Shown piece after piece: positions 28,076 through 38,046 of a DNA stretch of 64,000 nucleotides (within the stretch, counting starts at the first letter, position 1; the number at the start of each line of letters is the position of its first letter). The DNA is from an uncultured Dehalococcoidia bacterium (GTDB lineage Bacteria > Chloroflexota > Dehalococcoidia > Lucifugimonadales > Australimonadaceae). The notes beneath the pieces were generated by a model. The model made no database searches. It was not told the DNA's origin and saw only the letters and a list, made by a program, of their open reading frames with translations. A program made the translations under genes and the position numbers. The stretch lies in contig OY282355.1 in the NCBI GenBank assembly GCA_958295525.1, positions 1,091,504 through 1,155,503 of the forward strand. The letters are read 5' to 3'.

Positions 28076-29284
28076 ATGACCGATACGATCGTTCTCGCCT
28101 ACAGCGGAGGGCTGGACACCTCCGTCGCCATCCGCTGGCTTCAGGAGCGCTACGGGGCGGACGTCGCCACGCTCACGATGGACCTCGGCGGCGCGGTTGA
28201 CCTGGAGGCCGCGCGCCGCCGCGCCCTCGAGATCGGCGCCGTCCGCGCCGACGTGGTGGACGCGCGGGAGGAGTTCGTCCGCGAGTACGTCTGGCCCGCT
28301 CTGCGGGCGGGCGCGCTCTACGAGGGCGTCTATCCGCTCGCCACGGCGCTCGGCAGGCCGCTCATCGCCGAGCGGCTCGTCCGAATCGCGCAGGAAGAGG
28401 GCGCGTTCGCCATCGCGCACGGCTGCACGGGCAAAGGCAACGATCAGGTGCGGTTCGACGTGAGCGCGGCGGCGCTCGCCCCGAGCGTCAAGGTCGTCGC
28501 GCCCGCGCGCGAGTGGGGCATGACGCGCGACGACGAAATCGCCTACGCGAAAGAGCGCGGCGTCCCGATAGACCTCAACAAGCGCAGTTCCTACTCGGTG
28601 GACGAAAACCTCTGGGGGCGCAGCATCGAGGCCGGCGACTTGGAAGACCCGTGGGCGGAGCCGCCGGAAGAGGCGTTCGGCTGGACGGTTTCGGCGGACG
28701 CCGCGCCCGACGCGCCGCGCTGCGTGGAGATTCGCTTCGCGCAAGGCGTTCCCGTCGCGCTGGACGGCCAAGAGATGGACGGCCCCGCGCTGATCGAAAC
28801 CCTCAACGCGGCGGCGGGCGAGCACGGCGTGGGGCGCATAGACCACGTGGAGAACCGGCTCGTCGGCATCAAGTCGCGGGAGGTCTACGAGGCGCCCGCC
28901 GCCGTCACGCTGCATCTGGCGCGCCGCGCGCTCGAGCAGATGTGCCTCGCAAAGGAGCAGGCGCGCTTCAAGGAGCGGCTGGCGCAAGAGTACGCCGACC
29001 TCGTCTACAACGGGCTGTGGTTCACCGCGCACCGCCGCGACCTCGACGCCTACGTCGACAGCGTGACGCGGCGGGTCAGCGGCACCGTCCGCGTCCGTCT
29101 GCACAAGGGCGCGGCGACGGTGACGGGGCGCGAGAGCGCCGAGTCGCTCTACCGCCACGACCTCGCCACCTACGACGCGGGCGACGCTTTCGATCACCAA
29201 GCGTCGGCGGGGTTCATCAAGGTGTTCGGCCTGCCCGCGCGGACGCAGGCGCAAGCGCAGGGCGGGGAAGCGCAGCGGAGGTGA
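28076..29284 (+). CDS. argG: Argininosuccinate synthase
   Basis: 402 residues. Condenses citrulline with aspartate using ATP. The ATP-pyrophosphatase P-loop is at residues 7-14 (LAYSGGLDTSV); GCTGKGNDQVRF and DLNKRSSYSVDENLWGRS are further signature segments. GGAGG precedes the ATG at 28076. The stop overlaps the GTG of the next gene. argH follows only after about 7.4 kb, with other genes between. Confidence 0.97.
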   Translation: MTDTIVLAYSGGLDTSVAIRWLQERYGADVATLTMDLGGAVDLEAARRRALEIGAVRADVVDAREEFVREYVWPALRAGALYEGVYPLATALGRPLIAERLVRIAQEEGAFAIAHGCTGKGNDQVRFDVSAAALAPSVKVVAPAREWGMTRDDEIAYAKERGVPIDLNKRSSYSVDENLWGRSIEAGDLEDPWAEPPEEAFGWTVSADAAPDAPRCVEIRFAQGVPVALDGQEMDGPALIETLNAAAGEHGVGRIDHVENRLVGIKSREVYEAPAAVTLHLARRALEQMCLAKEQARFKERLAQEYADLVYNGLWFTAHRRDLDAYVDSVTRRVSGTVRVRLHKGAATVTGRESAESLYRHDLATYDAGDAFDHQASAGFIKVFGLPARTQAQAQGGEAQRR

Positions 29285-30159
29285 GCGGCGCGCTCCTCGC
29301 GCTCGCCGGGGCCGCGATGCTCGGCCTCAACACCGCCGTCGTGCGCCGGGGCGTGCTCCGCGCCTCCGCCTACAACGGCATCGTCATCTCCATTCTGCTC
29401 TCCGTGCCCGTGTTCGCGCTGCTCGCGCTCTTCTCAGGCCAGATCGCCCGCGCCGGAGAGTTCACGCGCCTCGACTACGCCGCGCTCGCCGCCGGGGGCG
29501 TTCTCAACTTCCTCGGCGGACGCTTCTCGCAGTTCCTGGCGATTCAGGCCGTGGGAGCGAACCTCACCGCGCCGATGCGCGTTCTCTCCGCGTTGTTCGG
29601 CGCGGCGCTGGGCGTGACGCTGCTCGGCGAGCAAGTCGGGCCGCTGCGGGGCGCGGGCATTGCGCTGCTCATCGCCGCGCCGCTCATCGCGTTCGCGCGT
29701 CCGCCCACCGTCAAACTCGGCGCGCTGCAAATCACGCGGGGCGTCGTCTTCGGCCTCTCCGCCGCCGTAACCTACGGCGGCTCCACGTTCCTCTTGCGCT
29801 GGACGCTCGCCGACTCCGGCCTCACGCTTTTGGGGGCGCTCGTCGCGCATGGGGCGGCGGCGCTCGTGCTCGCCGCCTCGCTCGGCCTGCCGGGGCGGGC
29901 GCGCGGCCTGCGCGAGATAGACCGCTCGGCGGCGAAACTCTTTCTCCTCGTCACGGCGATTATGACGCTGGCGCAAGTCTTCCGGTTCGCCGCGCTCGAA
30001 TCGGCGGACGCCGCGGTCGTCGCGCCGCTCACGGAGACGATGACGTTTTTCGGCCTTGCGTTCGCCTTTACGCTCAACCGCGAAACCGAATCGTTCAACC
30101 CGCTCGTGCTGCTGGGGATGGCGCTCGCCGCGGCGGGCGCGGTCGCCATAGCGCTTTGA
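29281..30159 (+). CDS. EamA/DMT-superfamily transporter
   Basis: 292 residues with ten hydrophobic segments in two EamA halves (second half begins near ITRGVVFGLSAAVTYGG). The GTG at 29281 overlaps the argG stop by four bases, with GCGGAG just upstream, so it is translated with argG. An amino acid or arginine-pathway metabolite may be its cargo, which is inference from position only. Confidence 0.87.
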   Translation: MSGALLALAGAAMLGLNTAVVRRGVLRASAYNGIVISILLSVPVFALLALFSGQIARAGEFTRLDYAALAAGGVLNFLGGRFSQFLAIQAVGANLTAPMRVLSALFGAALGVTLLGEQVGPLRGAGIALLIAAPLIAFARPPTVKLGALQITRGVVFGLSAAVTYGGSTFLLRWTLADSGLTLLGALVAHGAAALVLAASLGLPGRARGLREIDRSAAKLFLLVTAIMTLAQVFRFAALESADAAVVAPLTETMTFFGLAFAFTLNRETESFNPLVLLGMALAAAGAVAIAL

Positions 30160-30368: not shown

Positions 30369-31199
30369 CTACGGGGCGGCTCGGCCGCCACTTTCTTGAA
30401 TCCCGTCCAAGCCCCAGCCCCCATAGGCGCGCCACATCCCATCCGTCTCTACCTGTTCCAATTGGATATCGAGACCCTTGAATAAATGCTCAGTGGCTGG
30501 GTTGGGCTTGTCAGGGTGACTAATACGGCGTCGAATGAGATACGCTGCGGCGTCAGCAAGTTGGATGCCGAACGACCGATGCGAATCCTCAAATTGCAAG
30601 GAGCCTAGGATGTGCGTGAGTTGCCGCCCTGAGAACGGGTCAATTGGCGGAACCGCAACCATGAAATTGAAGTGTCTTATCCACCTGTCTATGCTCTTGG
30701 GCGGTATAGAAGCGCGATCTCCAATGAGTATGGCGTGTTTTGAACCTGCGCTTCTCGATGCAATAAGATTCAAGTCCAAGTATAGGCGCGTCAATAGGAC
30801 GTCATCAATGGCGACGCTAGGCATCGCCTTCTGCGAGTAGAGATCAATGATGCTTGGCGCCCGCGCCTTCTCAATGTAAATCCCTGCTATAGGAAGCCGA
30901 TGGCGAACAATAACGCTGGCGATGTCGAGCAAGACTTCCAAGCGTTCCGAGAAACCCATGCCTCTGAACGCGCGCGTTCCCTGATAGATGTCCCCAGCGT
31001 GCAACTCGAAAGAACCTGAGATGAGGTACTCTCCGGTTTCGTTGGGGAAGCGCTTGGCCACCACCGAACGGCAGTCTTGTTCGACGGATCTCCATATGGC
31101 CTCATCTATGGATACAGAGCATATCCCCTGAACCCGCTGCTGCGGGTCGGAGTAGTTCTGGCCAGTGCCGCCAGTGTCGTCAAAGTACGTCAAGTACAT
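30369..31199 (-). CDS. DUF3800-family protein on an inserted segment
   Basis: 276 residues. The N-terminal YFDDTGG and the C-terminal GIQLADAAAYLIRRR match the DUF3800 family, an RNase H-like fold with conserved acidic residues, often found in mobile or defence regions. Codon use is less GC-rich than neighbours. It lies opposite to its surroundings, between a truncated and a complete copy of the same dehydrogenase gene start. ATG at 31199 has AAGGAGACGGT upstream. Confidence 0.85.
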   Translation of the reverse strand: MYLTYFDDTGGTGQNYSDPQQRVQGICSVSIDEAIWRSVEQDCRSVVAKRFPNETGEYLISGSFELHAGDIYQGTRAFRGMGFSERLEVLLDIASVIVRHRLPIAGIYIEKARAPSIIDLYSQKAMPSVAIDDVLLTRLYLDLNLIASRSAGSKHAILIGDRASIPPKSIDRWIRHFNFMVAVPPIDPFSGRQLTHILGSLQFEDSHRSFGIQLADAAAYLIRRRISHPDKPNPATEHLFKGLDIQLEQVETDGMWRAYGGWGLDGIQESGGRAAP

Positions 31200-31371: not shown

Positions 31372-32256
31372 ATGCGTATCGGATGGATCGGCTTGGGACG
31401 GATGGGGAGGCCAATGGCCGAGAATCTCGTTCGCAAGGGATTCGACGTCGCCGTTCAGAACCGCAGCCAGGGCAAGGTTCGGGAACTCGTTGCGATGGGC
31501 GCGGCGGCGGGCGAGTCGTTCGCGGCGATGGGCGCGGAACTCGACGCCGTGCACACCTGCCTGCCCCACACCGGCGTCGCGCGGGAAGTAATCGCCGGGC
31601 CCGGCGGCGTGCTCGAGCGCGCCCGCGAGGGGCTGATCATCGTTGACCACACCACCATCCACCCGGACGCCGCCCGCGAGTTCGCGGCGACCGCCCGCGA
31701 GCGCGGCGCGGCCTACCTCGACGCCCCCGTCTCCGGATCCGGCCCCGTCGCCGAGCGCGGCGAACTCACCATTATGTGCGGCGGCGACCCCGAGGCGTTC
31801 GCCGCCGTCCGCCCCAACCTCGAGGCGATGGGCAAGACAATTGAGTTGATGGGCGAATCGGGCTCCGGCGCGGCGGCGAAAGTCGTCAACAACGTGCTGA
31901 TGGCCGCGAACCTCGCGGTTGCGATGGAGGCGCTCATCCTCGCGTCCCAGGCCGGCCTCGACTTGGAGCGGCTCTTCGCCGTCGTCCGAACGGCCTCCGG
32001 GGCGAGCCGCGCGTGGGAGCGGAACGCCCCCCGCATCCTCAGCGGCGAGTTCGGCAAGGACGGCTCCGCGTGGCTCACGATGCACGATCAGGATACGGCG
32101 CAGGAGATGGCGGACGAGTTCGGCCTCGCCTTGCCCGTGTTCGCGGAGTCGCGCCGGTTCTGGCGCGCCGTCGTGGACGCGGGGCTCGGCGAGGAAGACC
32201 CCTCGCACGGCGTAACCGCGCTGGAGCGGCGCCTCGGCGTCTCGCTGCGCGGGTAG
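31372..32256 (+). CDS. 3-hydroxyisobutyrate dehydrogenase-like NAD(P)-dependent oxidoreductase
   Basis: 294 residues of the beta-hydroxyacid dehydrogenase family. Nucleotide motif GLGRMGRPMAENL (8-20), substrate motif DAPVSGSGPVAERGELTIM (118-136), catalytic Lys170 in GAAAKVVNNVL and the helical dimerisation domain are all present. The substrate may be hydroxyisobutyrate, tartronate semialdehyde or another hydroxyacid. AAGGAGGG lies before the ATG. It is followed by the tandem membrane genes. Confidence 0.93.
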   Translation: MRIGWIGLGRMGRPMAENLVRKGFDVAVQNRSQGKVRELVAMGAAAGESFAAMGAELDAVHTCLPHTGVAREVIAGPGGVLERAREGLIIVDHTTIHPDAAREFAATARERGAAYLDAPVSGSGPVAERGELTIMCGGDPEAFAAVRPNLEAMGKTIELMGESGSGAAAKVVNNVLMAANLAVAMEALILASQAGLDLERLFAVVRTASGASRAWERNAPRILSGEFGKDGSAWLTMHDQDTAQEMADEFGLALPVFAESRRFWRAVVDAGLGEEDPSHGVTALERRLGVSLRG

Positions 32257-32297: not shown

Positions 32298-33464
32298 ATG
32301 CCGCGCCTCATCGCAACCTACCGCTGGGAACTGCTGATCATCGTCGGTCTCGTCGGGTCGTATGCTGCTATACAGGCGGCCTTGTCCGTTTCGCTGAAGG
32401 AGTTGGCGGATGCGACGGCTGGCGTCGTCGCCCTCATGGGGCTGCGCGCAGTTCTGATGGGCGCCCTCTACTTCAGGTTGCGCCGCTTGGGATACGGCTT
32501 GGAGTTCGCGCTCCTCGCCGCCGTTCCCTTCACCGCCGGATTGGCGTCGCTAGGTTATCTCCTTGCATTTCCTGTCGAATTGCTGGGTTCCGAGAATCCA
32601 ATCTCTCTCCTTTTCCTCAGGCCTCTCATTGAGCCGTTGACGACGGCGATACTCCTATCCGTCTTGTACGGCTACGTCCGGCGCACGCAAGGCGGCTTCC
32701 TCGGACTCGTATGCGGGTTGATGCTCGCCGCCGCCGCCGCCGAATCCGCAATCGTCGCGCACGAAATTGCGCCTTCGTTCATGATCCCCAATCTCTATGT
32801 AACGGCGGCTTTTCTGTTCGGCGGCGCCTTGTATGCTTGGCGATTGCGACTCGGTTTCACGAGGCCGGTTTGGGCGGCGGCGTTCGCAGCCGTGCTCGTC
32901 CATCTCGTGTTCACCGCCGCGCTAGACAGGGCATCCCTATTCCTCTTCTTCTACAGAACCCCTGGCGCCTTCATCATCGAATTCTCAACGATGCTTCTGG
33001 CTCTGTGGTTCGCCCGCCGCGCGTCCCGGGTCAGCCTCGCTCACGCATTCTTCATCGTCGCGCTCATTTTCTCCTTCCCGTTCGTTGGTCTTTTCGAGAT
33101 TGTTGCGTTCCAAAGCGACGCCGAAACGCCGTTGCGCGTCCTCGCATCCCCAGCGGCCAGCAGGGTATTGGGTGCCCTCGGGATCAGCGCAACCCTTGCC
33201 GCCGTCTGGATGCTCAGGAACTTCGACCGCCGGGACGCGGCGTTCCGCAAGCGCGCGGCGGTGGCGCTTTTCGGAATAAGGGCGGCGTTTGGGATCGCCG
33301 GAGCCGTCATGTTCGCGGCGCGAAGCAACGTAGCGTTTGCCCTAGACGCGCGCGCGGCCGTCGTCATCATTGGTTGGGGCGCAACAATTGCCCTCGTCTA
33401 CTTCATCCGCGAGCGGCGGGCGGCCATATCTGTCCGCGATGCTGCGCCGCCCGGCGGCGCGTGA
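32298..33464 (+). CDS. Tandem multi-pass membrane protein, copy 1
   Basis: 388 residues, family not recognised, with about 12 hydrophobic segments. Arg-rich short loops lie on one side (RLRRLGYGLE, WFARRASRVSLAH, NFDRRDAAFRKRAA), predicting N- and C-termini in the cytoplasm. Loops between TM1-2, 3-4, 5-6, 7-8, 9-10 and 11-12 are on the other side and differ between the copies. No known catalytic motif, signal peptide or transporter signature was found. ATG follows GGAGAACGCCTAACG. The stop is four bases before the next conserved junction (TGAGAGAATG). Confidence 0.85.
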   Translation: MPRLIATYRWELLIIVGLVGSYAAIQAALSVSLKELADATAGVVALMGLRAVLMGALYFRLRRLGYGLEFALLAAVPFTAGLASLGYLLAFPVELLGSENPISLLFLRPLIEPLTTAILLSVLYGYVRRTQGGFLGLVCGLMLAAAAAESAIVAHEIAPSFMIPNLYVTAAFLFGGALYAWRLRLGFTRPVWAAAFAAVLVHLVFTAALDRASLFLFFYRTPGAFIIEFSTMLLALWFARRASRVSLAHAFFIVALIFSFPFVGLFEIVAFQSDAETPLRVLASPAASRVLGALGISATLAAVWMLRNFDRRDAAFRKRAAVALFGIRAAFGIAGAVMFAARSNVAFALDARAAVVIIGWGATIALVYFIRERRAAISVRDAAPPGGA

Positions 33465-33477
33465 GAGAATGCGCCCT

Positions 33478-34599
33478 ATGCTGCGCCTCATCGCAACCTA
33501 CCGCTGGGAACTGCTGATCGTCGTCGGTCTCGTCGGGACGTATGCTGCTACACGGACGGCCTTGTCCGTTTCGCGCGACCCGACGGATGCGACGGCTGGC
33601 GTCGTTGCCCTCCTGGGGCTGCGCGCAGTTCTGATGGGCGCTCTCTACCTCAGGTTGCGCCGCTTGGGGTACGGCTTGGAGTTCGCGCTTCTCGCCGCCG
33701 TTCCCTTCACCGCCGGATTAGCGTCGCTAGGTTACTTCCTTGCATTTTCTTATCTAGCCGAATGGTCTCTCTTCTTCGCCGGGCCTCTCGTCGCGCCGTT
33801 GACGACAGCGGCGCTGCTATCCGTCCTGTACGGCTACGTCCGGCGCGCGCAAGGCGGCTTCCTCGGACTCGTATGCGGGTTGATGCTCGCCGTCGCCGCC
33901 GCCGAGTCCGCAATCGTCGCGCACCAACTGGCGCCTGAGTTCGGGATCCCCAATCTCTATGTAACGGCGGCTTTTCTGTTGGGCGGCTCCTTGTATGCTT
34001 GGCGATTGCGATTCGGTTTCACGAGGCCGGTTTGGGCGGCGGCGTTCGCAGCCGTGCTCATCCATCTTGTGGTCGCCGCCGCGCTAGACAGGCCATCCGC
34101 ATTCTTCGTCCACAGCAGCCCCGGCTCCTTCTTCATCACCGAATTCTTGACGATGCTTCTCGTTCTGTGGTTCGCCCGCCGCGCATCCCGGATCAGCCTC
34201 GCTCATGCGTTCTTCATCGTCGCGCTCGTCATCTCCTTCCCCTTCGCTCGTCTTTTCGAGTTGGTTGCGTTCCTCGCATCCGCAGCGGCCAGCGGAGCGT
34301 CATCTGCCCTCTGGATCAGCGAAACCCTTGCCGCCGTCTGGATGCTCGGGAACTTCGACCACCGGGGCGCGGCGTTCCGCAAGCGCGCGGCGGCGGCGCT
34401 TTTCGGAATAAAGGCGGCGTTTGTGATCGCCGAAATCGTCATTCTCGCGGTGCGAAGCAACGGGGCGTTTGCCCAAGACGCGCCGCTCGAGGCCCTCGTC
34501 ATCGTTGGTTGGGGCGCAACGATCGCCCTCGTCTACCTCCTCCGCGACCGGCGGCCCGCCATATCTGTCCGCGATGCTGCGCCGCCCGGCGGCGCGTGA
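33478..34599 (+). CDS. Tandem multi-pass membrane protein, copy 2
   Basis: 373 residues, close paralogue of copy 1 with identical start RLIATYRWELLI and end ISVRDAAPPGGA. It is about 15 residues shorter, mainly in the external loops 3-4 and 9-10. The start at 33478 is taken to match the homologous Met of copy 1; an ATG at 33469 would add three residues. The junction from copy 1 (GGCGGCGCGTGAGAGAATGCGCC) is repeated at the next boundary. Confidence 0.85.
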   Translation: MLRLIATYRWELLIVVGLVGTYAATRTALSVSRDPTDATAGVVALLGLRAVLMGALYLRLRRLGYGLEFALLAAVPFTAGLASLGYFLAFSYLAEWSLFFAGPLVAPLTTAALLSVLYGYVRRAQGGFLGLVCGLMLAVAAAESAIVAHQLAPEFGIPNLYVTAAFLLGGSLYAWRLRFGFTRPVWAAAFAAVLIHLVVAAALDRPSAFFVHSSPGSFFITEFLTMLLVLWFARRASRISLAHAFFIVALVISFPFARLFELVAFLASAAASGASSALWISETLAAVWMLGNFDHRGAAFRKRAAAALFGIKAAFVIAEIVILAVRSNGAFAQDAPLEALVIVGWGATIALVYLLRDRRPAISVRDAAPPGGA

Positions 34600-34612
34600 G
34601 AGAATGCGCCTG

Positions 34613-35779
34613 ATGCTGCGCCTCATCGCAACCTACCGCTGGGAACTGCTGATCGTCGTCGGTCTCGTCGGGACGTATGCTGCTACACGGACGGTCTTGT
34701 CCGTTTCGGGCGTTCCGACGGATGCGACGGCTGGCGTCGTCGCCCTCCTGGGGCTGCGCGCAGTTCTGATGGGCGCCCTCTACTTCAGGTTGCGCCGCTT
34801 GGGATACGGCTTGGAGTTCGCGCTTCTCGCCGCCGTTCCCTTCACCGCCGGATTGGCGTCGCTAGGTTACTTCCTTGCATTTCCTTATCTAGCCGAATTG
34901 CTGGGTTTCGAGTATACCTTCTTTGCCGCGCGTCTCATTGAGCCGTTGACGACGGCGATACTTCTATCCGTCCTGTACGGCTACGTCCGGCGCGCGCAAG
35001 GCGGCTTCCTCGGACTCGTATGCGGGTTGATGCTCGCCGCCGCCGCCGCCGAGTCCGCAATCGTCGCGCACCAACTTGCGCCTCAGTTCAGTATCCCCAA
35101 TCTCTACGTGACGGCGGCTTTTCTGGTGAGCGGCTCCTTGTATGCTTGGCGATTGCGCCTCGGTTTCACGAGGCCGGTTTGGGTTGCGGTGTTCGCAGCC
35201 GTGCTCATCCATCTTGTGTTCACCGCCGCGCTAGACAGGCCATCCCTATTCATCTTCTTCGACAGAATCCCCGGCTTCTTCTTCATCAGCGAATGCTTGA
35301 CGATGCTTCTCGCTCTGTGGTTCGCCCGCCGCGCGTCCCGGGTCAGCCTCGCTCACGCATTCTTCATCGTCGCGCTCGTCATCTCCTTCCCGTTCGCTCG
35401 TCTTTTCGAGCCGGTTGCGTTCCAAAGCGACGCCGAAACGCCGTTGCGCGTCCTCGCATTCGCAGCGACCATCGGAGCATTGCATGCCCTCTCCATCAGC
35501 GCAACCCTTGCCGCCGTCTGGATGCTCGGGAACTTCGACCGGCGGGGCGCGGCGTTCCGCAAGCGCGCGGCGGCGGCGCTTTTCGGAATAAGGGCGGCGG
35601 TTGGGATCGCTGGAGCCGTCATTCTCGCGGCGCGAAGCAACGGGGCGTTTGCCCAAGACGCGCCGCTCGAGGCCGCCGTCATCGTTGGGTGGGGCGCAAC
35701 GGTCGCCCTCGTCTACTTCGTCCGCGACCGGCGGGCGGCCATATCTGTCCGCGATGCTGCGCCGCCCGGCGGCGCGTGA
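34613..35779 (+). CDS. Tandem multi-pass membrane protein, copy 3
   Basis: 388 residues, close paralogue of copies 1 and 2 with the same predicted 12-segment topology. Cytoplasmic-side loops are almost identical to copy 1, while external loops differ (for example AELLGFEYTFFAARLIEP against VELLGSENPISLLFLRP in copy 1). The same 23-base junction precedes and follows it. Start ATG at 34613 aligns with copy 1. Confidence 0.85.
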   Translation: MLRLIATYRWELLIVVGLVGTYAATRTVLSVSGVPTDATAGVVALLGLRAVLMGALYFRLRRLGYGLEFALLAAVPFTAGLASLGYFLAFPYLAELLGFEYTFFAARLIEPLTTAILLSVLYGYVRRAQGGFLGLVCGLMLAAAAAESAIVAHQLAPQFSIPNLYVTAAFLVSGSLYAWRLRLGFTRPVWVAVFAAVLIHLVFTAALDRPSLFIFFDRIPGFFFISECLTMLLALWFARRASRVSLAHAFFIVALVISFPFARLFEPVAFQSDAETPLRVLAFAATIGALHALSISATLAAVWMLGNFDRRGAAFRKRAAAALFGIRAAVGIAGAVILAARSNGAFAQDAPLEAAVIVGWGATVALVYFVRDRRAAISVRDAAPPGGA

Positions 35780-35792
35780 GAGAATGCGCCTG

Positions 35793-36671
35793 ATGCCGCG
35801 CCTCATCGCAACCTACCGCTGGGAGTTGTGGCTGCTGGCGGGCATTCCCGCCATCGCGCAGGCGACGCGAATTCTGACGGGCGTCTTGGCCTTTGGCGTT
35901 TTCCGCTTCAGCGATTCGAACGCGTCCTTTTACGTTGCGGACATTGGAGCCACGGTCTCCGTCATTCTTCTCTTGGCGCTCTCCTATCCGCGCGTCCGGG
36001 GCTTGGGGCGCGAATTCCTCGCTCTCCTCTGGGGCTACCTGATAGCGGCGGAGGTCTTGGCGGCGGCCGTTCAGAGCGTTGCGTTCCTAGTGGATTTCGC
36101 TTCTTCCGGAGACGAATCTTCGGCGTTCCTCTCCACCGGCGAAAGGCTTCTCGTTTACCTAGCGGCTGCGCCCATAGAAATCGGCGTCCTGCTCTGGTTC
36201 GGGCGCCAGGCGTCGCGGCTCAGCCTGCCTCATGCATTTTTCCTCGTCGCCTTCGCATCGTTCGCCGCGCCCCTGGGCTCGCGCGGGAGCCCGGATGCCG
36301 CGCTCGCGTTGGCGCTCGTGTTGGCGGCGGGAGCCGTCATCGTCGTATTTCTTGCGCTCGCCAAGGCGTGGCTGCTTGGGAACTTCGACCGGCGAGACGC
36401 CGTGTTCCGGAGAAACGCAGTCGCAGCGCTAGTCGCCGCGGTATTACTGAGCGGCTGGGCGCGGTCCGTCATCGCCTTGCTGCTGAGCGGCGGGGACGAC
36501 TCGGCGCTGCAAGCGTATGCGCCTTTCGCCGGATTGATCACGGGAGGCATAGCCTTCGTCTACCAAGCCGGGGCCGAACTCGCGCTGCTCCTCGTGTATT
36601 TCGCCCTCGTCTACTTCTTCCGCGACCGGCGGGCGGCCATCGTTCCCCCGCAAGAGGTTCGCGTACAATAG
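35793..36671 (+). CDS. Tandem multi-pass membrane protein, copy 4 (diverged, short)
   Basis: 292 residues. The first 12 residues (MPRLIATYRWEL) equal copy 1, and the later segments GRQASRLSLPHAFFLVAF and LLGNFDRRDAVFRRNA and YFFRDRRAAI are homologous to the others, but the middle is different and shorter, with about eight to nine membrane segments. The nucleotide junction before it is the same as for copies 2 and 3. It ends eight bases before argH, so the array and argH are probably co-transcribed. Confidence 0.82.
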   Translation: MPRLIATYRWELWLLAGIPAIAQATRILTGVLAFGVFRFSDSNASFYVADIGATVSVILLLALSYPRVRGLGREFLALLWGYLIAAEVLAAAVQSVAFLVDFASSGDESSAFLSTGERLLVYLAAAPIEIGVLLWFGRQASRLSLPHAFFLVAFASFAAPLGSRGSPDAALALALVLAAGAVIVVFLALAKAWLLGNFDRRDAVFRRNAVAALVAAVLLSGWARSVIALLLSGGDDSALQAYAPFAGLITGGIAFVYQAGAELALLLVYFALVYFFRDRRAAIVPPQEVRVQ

Positions 36672-36678
36672 ACGCGCA

Positions 36679-38046
36679 ATGACCGGCTACGCCACCCATC
36701 ACTTCGAGGCGGCCTCGCGCTACACCGTCTCCGTGGGCTACGACCGCCGCCTCTACGCCTACGACCTCGCGGGCTCCGCAGTCCATGCGCGGATGCTCGC
36801 GCGTCAAGGGATCATCCCGCAGGCCGACGCCGACGCCATCGCGCGCGGGCTGGAGGACGTCCGCCGCGAGATCGAAGACGGCTCGTTTCCCTGGCGCGAG
36901 GAGCACGAAGACCTGCATATGAACATAGAGGCGCGCCTGCGCGAACTGATCGGCGAGCCCGCCGCGCGCCTCCACACCGCCCGCTCCCGCAACGATCAGG
37001 TGGCCACGGCCACCCGCCTCTATGTCCGCGACGCGGCGGACCGCGCCGTCCGCTCGCTGCGGGCGCTGCAAGGCGCGCTGCTCGCCCTCGCGGAGCGCGA
37101 ACAGGGCGCGATAATGCCGGGCTACACGCATCTGCAGCGCGCTCAGCCTGTGCCTTTCGCCCACCACCTGCTCGCCTACTTCGAAATGTTCGACCGCGAC
37201 GCCGCCCGCTTCGCCGACGCCCGCAAGCGCGTCAACGTCCTGCCCCTCGGATCGGGCGCGCTCGCCGGCGTTCCCTACCCCATCGACCGCGAGTGGGCGG
37301 CGCGCGAACTCGGCTTCGACGCCCTGACCGCCAACTCGATGGACGCGGTGTCCGACCGCGACTACGCCGTCGAATATCTCGCCGCCGCCGCCGCCGCGAT
37401 GATGCACTGCTCCCGCCTCGCCGAGGAGATCGTGCTCTGGTCGTCGCAGGAATTCGGCTTCATCCAACTTGGACGCCAGTGGGTGACGGGCTCGTCCATA
37501 ATGCCGCAGAAGCGCAACCCGGACTTCGCGGAGATTGCGCGCGGCAAGACGGGGCGCGTCTACGGCAGCCTGATCGGCCTGCTCACGACGCTCAAGGGAT
37601 TGCCCCTCGCGTACAACCGCGACTTGCAAGAGGACAAGGAGGGGCTCTTCGACGCCGTCGACACGCTGGAGGCGACGCTGGAGGCGATGCGCGGAATGCT
37701 CGGCGGCTGCGCGGTGAACGCGGAGCGTATGCGCGAGGCAGCGGAGGACAGCGCGCTGCTGGCGACCGACCTCGCCGACTACCTCGTCGGCAAGGGCGCG
37801 CCGTTCCGCGAGGCGCACGCGGCGGTGAGCGCGCTCTGCGAAATCGCGGCGGAGCGCGGCGTCCCCCTCATGGCGTTGCCGCTGGAGGAGATGCGCGCCC
37901 TGCGCCCCGAGTTCGACGAGGACGCGCGGCGCATCACCGCCGAGGCGAGCGCCGCCGCCCGAGACGTTCCCGGCGGCGCGGCGCCCGTCCGCGTCCGCGA
38001 GGCGCTCGCCCAGGCGAAGGCGCGGCTGGAGGCCGCCGGTGGCTGA
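36679..38046 (+). CDS. argH: Argininosuccinate lyase
   Basis: 455 residues of the fumarase/aspartase superfamily; releases fumarate and arginine. The family signature GSSIMPQKRNPDFAEIARGK holds the catalytic serine loop; HTARSRNDQVAT and GYTHLQRAQPVPFAHH contain the substrate-binding residues. Its start lies 7 bases after the membrane array and its stop overlaps the rpe GTG. Confidence 0.97.
   Translation: MTGYATHHFEAASRYTVSVGYDRRLYAYDLAGSAVHARMLARQGIIPQADADAIARGLEDVRREIEDGSFPWREEHEDLHMNIEARLRELIGEPAARLHTARSRNDQVATATRLYVRDAADRAVRSLRALQGALLALAEREQGAIMPGYTHLQRAQPVPFAHHLLAYFEMFDRDAARFADARKRVNVLPLGSGALAGVPYPIDREWAARELGFDALTANSMDAVSDRDYAVEYLAAAAAAMMHCSRLAEEIVLWSSQEFGFIQLGRQWVTGSSIMPQKRNPDFAEIARGKTGRVYGSLIGLLTTLKGLPLAYNRDLQEDKEGLFDAVDTLEATLEAMRGMLGGCAVNAERMREAAEDSALLATDLADYLVGKGAPFREAHAAVSALCEIAAERGVPLMALPLEEMRALRPEFDEDARRITAEASAAARDVPGGAAPVRVREALAQAKARLEAAGG

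Follow-up and report, generated by a model that had tools for sequence, protein, structure and literature searches.

In bacteria, tandem arrays of paralogous, fast-evolving genes for surface or immunity proteins form a general class, and variable copy number combined with fast-changing loops on one face is often seen in proteins engaged in biological conflict. Transporters, for their part, commonly contain 8, 10 or 12 transmembrane (TM) helices and commonly grow by duplication of helix pairs. Here we describe a small nameless gene family encoding multi-pass membrane proteins, which evolves much faster than its neighbours and is found in an abundant, mostly uncultured marine clade. No description of it was found in the literature on SAR202 and sponge genomes or on tandem membrane genes.

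Judging from its relatives, the source genome probably belongs to a SAR202-clade Chloroflexota of a genus that occurs in sponges. MPMJ01000007 (SAR202 cluster bacterium bin16) and JAPPHT010000081 (Chloroflexota bacterium isolate RHO1_bin_8) are loci of this genus; bin16 was obtained from the sponge Aplysina aerophoba and is listed under the SAR202 clade (PMC5649159). G-numbers and L-numbers below denote the genomes and the loci compared in the analysis, G001-G005 being of the same genus as the source, and the window is the whole stretch of 64,000 nucleotides that was analysed. A first, sequence-only reading of it had described a four-gene array, and four plus-strand open reading frames are indeed found at 32298-36671, where they occupy the space between a dehydrogenase gene and argH, all in the same direction:

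29278-30159: EamA-family transporter gene in the same gene cluster (Pfam EamA, 2.8e-15)
31372-32256, plus strand: NAD-binding 3-hydroxyisobutyrate-dehydrogenase-like gene, upstream flank (Pfam NAD_binding_2 and NAD_binding_11)
32298-33464, plus strand: copy 1, long form, 388 aa, 12 predicted TM helices
33462-33480, plus strand: junction of copies 1 and 2 (TGA stop, 13 nt, ATG), read directly
33478-34599, plus strand: copy 2, long form, 373 aa
34597-34615, plus strand: the junction again, copies 2 and 3
34613-35779, plus strand: copy 3, long form, 388 aa
34616-34804, plus strand: first N-terminal two-helix unit of copy 3, residues 2-64 (short-form TM1-TM2 profile, iE 1.9e-7)
34814-34996, plus strand: second N-terminal two-helix unit of copy 3, residues 68-128, internal duplication (iE 2.3e-6)
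35777-35795, plus strand: the junction again, copies 3 and 4
35793-36671, plus strand: copy 4, short form, 292 aa, 8 predicted TM helices
35792-35824, plus strand: 5' end of copy 4, about 32-33 nt identical to copy 1
36601-36640, plus strand: 3' tract of copy 4, 40 nt, 97.5% identical to copy 3
36679-38046, plus strand: argH (argininosuccinate lyase), downstream flank

The start points are 1180, 1135 and 1180 bases apart, in agreement with the spacing of about 1135-1180 given earlier, and the junction said to be common to all boundaries is shared by the three internal ones (3/3, TGA-GAGAATGCGCC(CT or TG)-ATG) but not by the boundary before copy 1, which differs. An in-frame ATG within the GAGAATGCGCC junction offers an alternative start. 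An assembly error is unlikely, because the copies are not identical, the source genome is one 2.51-Mb contig, and the site contains more than one member in a sister species too. In the source genome the family was found at this site alone. The opposite strand carries a DUF3800 gene (30369-31199, minus strand) between the EamA gene and the dehydrogenase gene, which looks like an insertion in the source genome because G002, G004 and G005 have no gene called in that slot. At the other flank, GTACAATAGACGCG (36663-36681 here) stands directly before the argH ATG in 5/5 species (also L018, L020, L021, L074) and is kept with or without the array. It is a possible -10 element (TACAAT), and since only a very short distance separates this conserved stretch from the start, argH may be transcribed from a leaderless promoter of its own; the TAG stop codon of copy 4 falls within the putative element. 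A sigma-70 promoter scan gave a result no better than chance, and an Rfam search gave no match.

The count of copies in related genomes that the sequence-only reading had proposed was made for five species belonging to the genus. Between the dehydrogenase gene and argH lie 4 members in the source genome, 2 in G002 (a long form and then a short one, the same order as in the source genome), 1 each in G003 and G005, and 0 in G004, whose two flanking genes are about 25 bases apart; G001, in which argH is cut by the contig end, lies outside the count. Among G002-G005 the flanks are highly similar (argH 93-95% identical, dehydrogenase 92-95%, dS 0.24-0.40 for the pairs measured), whereas the short-form site members are 35-48% identical, with dS of 0.93-1.51. 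Because this dS exceeds the flank values by a factor of about three to five, the site members are not simple vertical copies, and turnover at a fixed site, either by the sorting of older paralogues or by gene replacement, is well supported. G002 and G003 also have a second site of the family in common, close to a luciferase-like gene (L070:4055-5164 and L072:258-1289), and the pair located there looks like true orthologues, with a dS of 0.36 against 0.31 for that neighbour and a dN/dS of 0.54 against 0.08. Considering both the dS excess at the argH site and the dN/dS of this second pair, it is well supported that the family turns over and also evolves fast in protein sequence.

The array had been described as lying inside the arg region, but a link to arginine metabolism is rejected, given that the G004 site is empty and that members elsewhere adjoin unrelated genes; the array does not appear to be part of arginine synthesis, the argH interval probably being only its site. 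Members away from argH are solitary genes with differing neighbours, none of them shared between sites, including what we take from the translations to be ffh, a gyrase subunit and ATP-synthase genes. Carriage as cargo of a mobile element or phage is likewise rejected, with no match in PHROGs, no homologue in phage, plasmid or viral contigs, and no flanking repeats seen at the array site by eye.

The sequence-only reading could not place the family, and the profile searches since run agree, as no library names it. No member has a convincing match in Pfam, NCBIfam, PHROGs, PADLOC or PDB sequences; more specifically, none of 14 members matches Pfam EamA or, at E 0.01, the PADLOC anti-phage models. 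A first GTDB contig scan returned no named homologues, and a three-sequence homology query matched only two already known sister loci. Members were defined by the motif series YRWE ... RVRR ... FxRxASRxSxxH ... YLVRVR, 8 TM helices and a full-length profile match. The 14-member profile matches copies 1-4 with E of 1e-77 to 1e-84, partly by construction, the copies being among its 14 rows, and independent matches were obtained in G172, G313 and G248. Of 250 genomes from the order, 11 contain matches, and a sample of 393 from the class added one more; among 400 from the phylum there was a single additional match, in G691, which is an ABC permease and a false positive. The family thus defined appears rare and lineage-restricted, its members coming almost all from one order. 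G248, of the same order, carries its own tandem pair of distant members (L071:3140-5249; 48% mutual identity, dN/dS 0.51).

In several Chloroflexota, the gene after that of a PadR regulator encodes a protein whose N-terminal domain, LYRxLLxxYPxxFRxxYGxxM, is conserved (L073:4134-5556; L087-L101), a region at which Pfam has no named domain. The protein from G057 (L073:4516-5556; PadR gene directly before it, Pfam E 9.3e-14) combines this domain with a membrane part matching the family at an hhalign probability of 95.6, a single case that hints at a possible stress- or compound-responsive role.

The basic form of the protein has 260-300 aa and 8 predicted TM helices, with ends and alternate loops that are Arg-rich in the common form according to the predicted topology. 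These loops are read as cytoplasmic because of the positive-inside rule, here an assumption, and the alternation of conserved and variable loops is independent of the inner or outer assignment. The conserved motifs open with YRWE; RVRR follows helix 2, FARxASRxSLxHAFF follows helix 4, WLLGNF...FRRR follows helix 6, and YLVRVR closes the sequence. Across the 14 short-form members, 24/59 inner-loop columns reach 70% identity, against 0/67 in the outer loops. AF2 models, built from alignments of window sequences plus two further loci only, are of low confidence (pLDDT 55 and pTM 0.40 with 7 sequences; pLDDT 45 for a second model), so that no fold is claimed, and the Foldseek matches of the low-confidence model (best E-value 0.42) are noise.

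Copies 1-3 are of the long form, with about 12 TM helices, in which the N-terminal two-helix unit is duplicated within the gene. Besides the two units of copy 3 listed above, the short-form TM1-TM2 profile matches the second unit in copies 1 (0.0028) and 2 (2e-4), and it matches the long-form gene of G002 twice in tandem (4.6e-8 and 3.9e-8). One further helix pair in copies 1-3 is without proven origin; a third internal repeat, at about helices 6-7, seemed similar by eye and was discarded as not significant with the profile. The long-form gene arose first and was then triplicated into copies 1-3.

How the four copies relate to one another is somewhat different from what was first proposed. Recent tandem duplication holds for copies 1-3, a triplication with a dS of about 0.1 (0.09-0.11 pairwise), but not for copy 4, which is older and of a different lineage with shared ends. 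Describing copies 1-3 as near-identical outside short patches is somewhat too strong at 79-86% amino-acid identity, although gaps and changes do cluster in defined loops. That copy 4 shares only the ends is correct for the DNA, which is near-identical only over the first ~33 nt and the 40-nt 3' stretch, with two inner tracts 77-85% identical to copies 1-3 and no tract outside the ends above 85%; it is not correct for the protein, which is homologous to copy 1 along its entire length at 37% identity. Exchange or crossing-over at the shared ends is the simplest reading. The nearest relative of copy 4 is a gene of another genus (G172, 42% identity, against 33-38% for same-genus site members), a grouping found in a family tree with long branches.

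Within copies 1-3, recent change lies in patches, as had been noted, and is concentrated in loops. On a star tree, amino-acid to silent changes number 55:9 in the outer loops, about 18:13 in the inner loops and about 45:20 in the helices, and the outer loops differ from the inner ones (P=0.003) and from the helices (P=0.02) in this comparison of three sequences under a predicted topology. Polymorphic sites are mildly clustered (79 runs vs 91 expected, P=0.017), which is consistent with some gene conversion.

The reading that we tentatively favour is one of stand-alone membrane proteins whose outer face diversifies as part of a role in conflict or protection. The sequences show that, on the basic 8 TM form, the N-terminal two-helix unit can duplicate inside the gene, and that whole genes are duplicated, lost or replaced at one genome site, a birth and death with exchange at shared ends. 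The proteins would be located in the cytoplasmic membrane, their inner face constant and their outer one variable, the latter diversified by interaction with something that is itself changing, and the likeliest role would be protection or recognition in conflict with membrane-acting toxins, phages or host compounds. The evolutionary part of this explanation is well supported; the function is what we infer from it. In its favour count the copy numbers at the site, the dS excess, the dN/dS of the second-site pair of G002 and G003, the outer-loop changes, the split in loop conservation, the lack of a conserved polar residue deep in a helix, the duplicated unit and the lack of shared neighbours; against it count the lack of a known relative, the origin of the outer-loop excess in three sequences with predicted topology, and an overall dN/dS near 1, which could also reflect relaxed constraint. 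It also counts against this reading that no toxin, phage or defence gene accompanies the family and that the PADLOC and PHROGs scans gave no match. A more specific version, in which the array is a variable outer-face recognition or immunity system of sponge-associated bacteria built by nested duplication, of helix pairs within genes and of genes within the array, and by fixed-site replacement, is rather doubtful.

The main rival, somewhat unlikely in our estimate, is that the genes form a new family of transporters or exporters for small molecules, with copies that are amplified for dosage and diverge in the substrates they handle. Helix number and helix-pair duplication are as commonly seen in transporters, and the cluster also contains the EamA-family gene, but a transport path is expected to be more conserved than one set of loops. 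Within the helices of the 14 short-form members the only strictly conserved polar residue is His147 (G005 protein), at the inner end of helix 5, S157 is conserved in half of them, no conserved polar residue lies deep in a helix, and matches in Pfam, NCBIfam and PDB sequences are lacking. It is unlikely that the genes are weakly constrained, nearly dispensable and drifting, with tandem copies that come and go by unequal crossing-over. The dN/dS of 0.9-1.1 among copies 1-3 would fit such drift, as would the sister species without site members; nevertheless the reading frame is open in every family member at the site, the inner motifs persist between genera whose proteins are about 30% identical overall, and pN/pS among copies 1-3 is 0.44-0.69 in the inner loops against 1.8-2.3 in the outer ones. 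Part of the pattern may be due to weak constraint, which does not account for the loop contrast. A membrane sensor signalling to a cytoplasmic partner through the conserved inner loops is very improbable. Conservation on one face only and the very distant G057 relative, with its PadR gene and extra N-terminal domain, speak for it; the lack of an output domain on any genus member read and of any recurrent neighbour speaks against it.

The series of 0, 1, 1, 2 and 4 copies at one site is a natural experiment, and the constant and variable faces point to where interaction should be sought. If true, the conflict reading would expose an unknown antagonism in sponge microbiomes.

Compared with known systems, the array proteins resemble EamA/DMT transporters (PF00892) in having multiple TM helices and in having grown by helix-unit duplication, but it is the neighbouring gene, and no family member, that matches EamA. 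The PadR-adjacent proteins of Chloroflexota are linked to the family by the membrane part of the G057 protein, whereas the array genes have neither the N-terminal domain nor an adjoining PadR gene. Compared with arrays of surface or immunity genes, this one encodes proteins of 8-12 TM helices without a secretion signal, a toxin or partner gene or a recognised domain, but it is like them in its variable copy number at one site, in its shared ends and divergent middles, and in the concentration of changes in segments predicted to be exposed.
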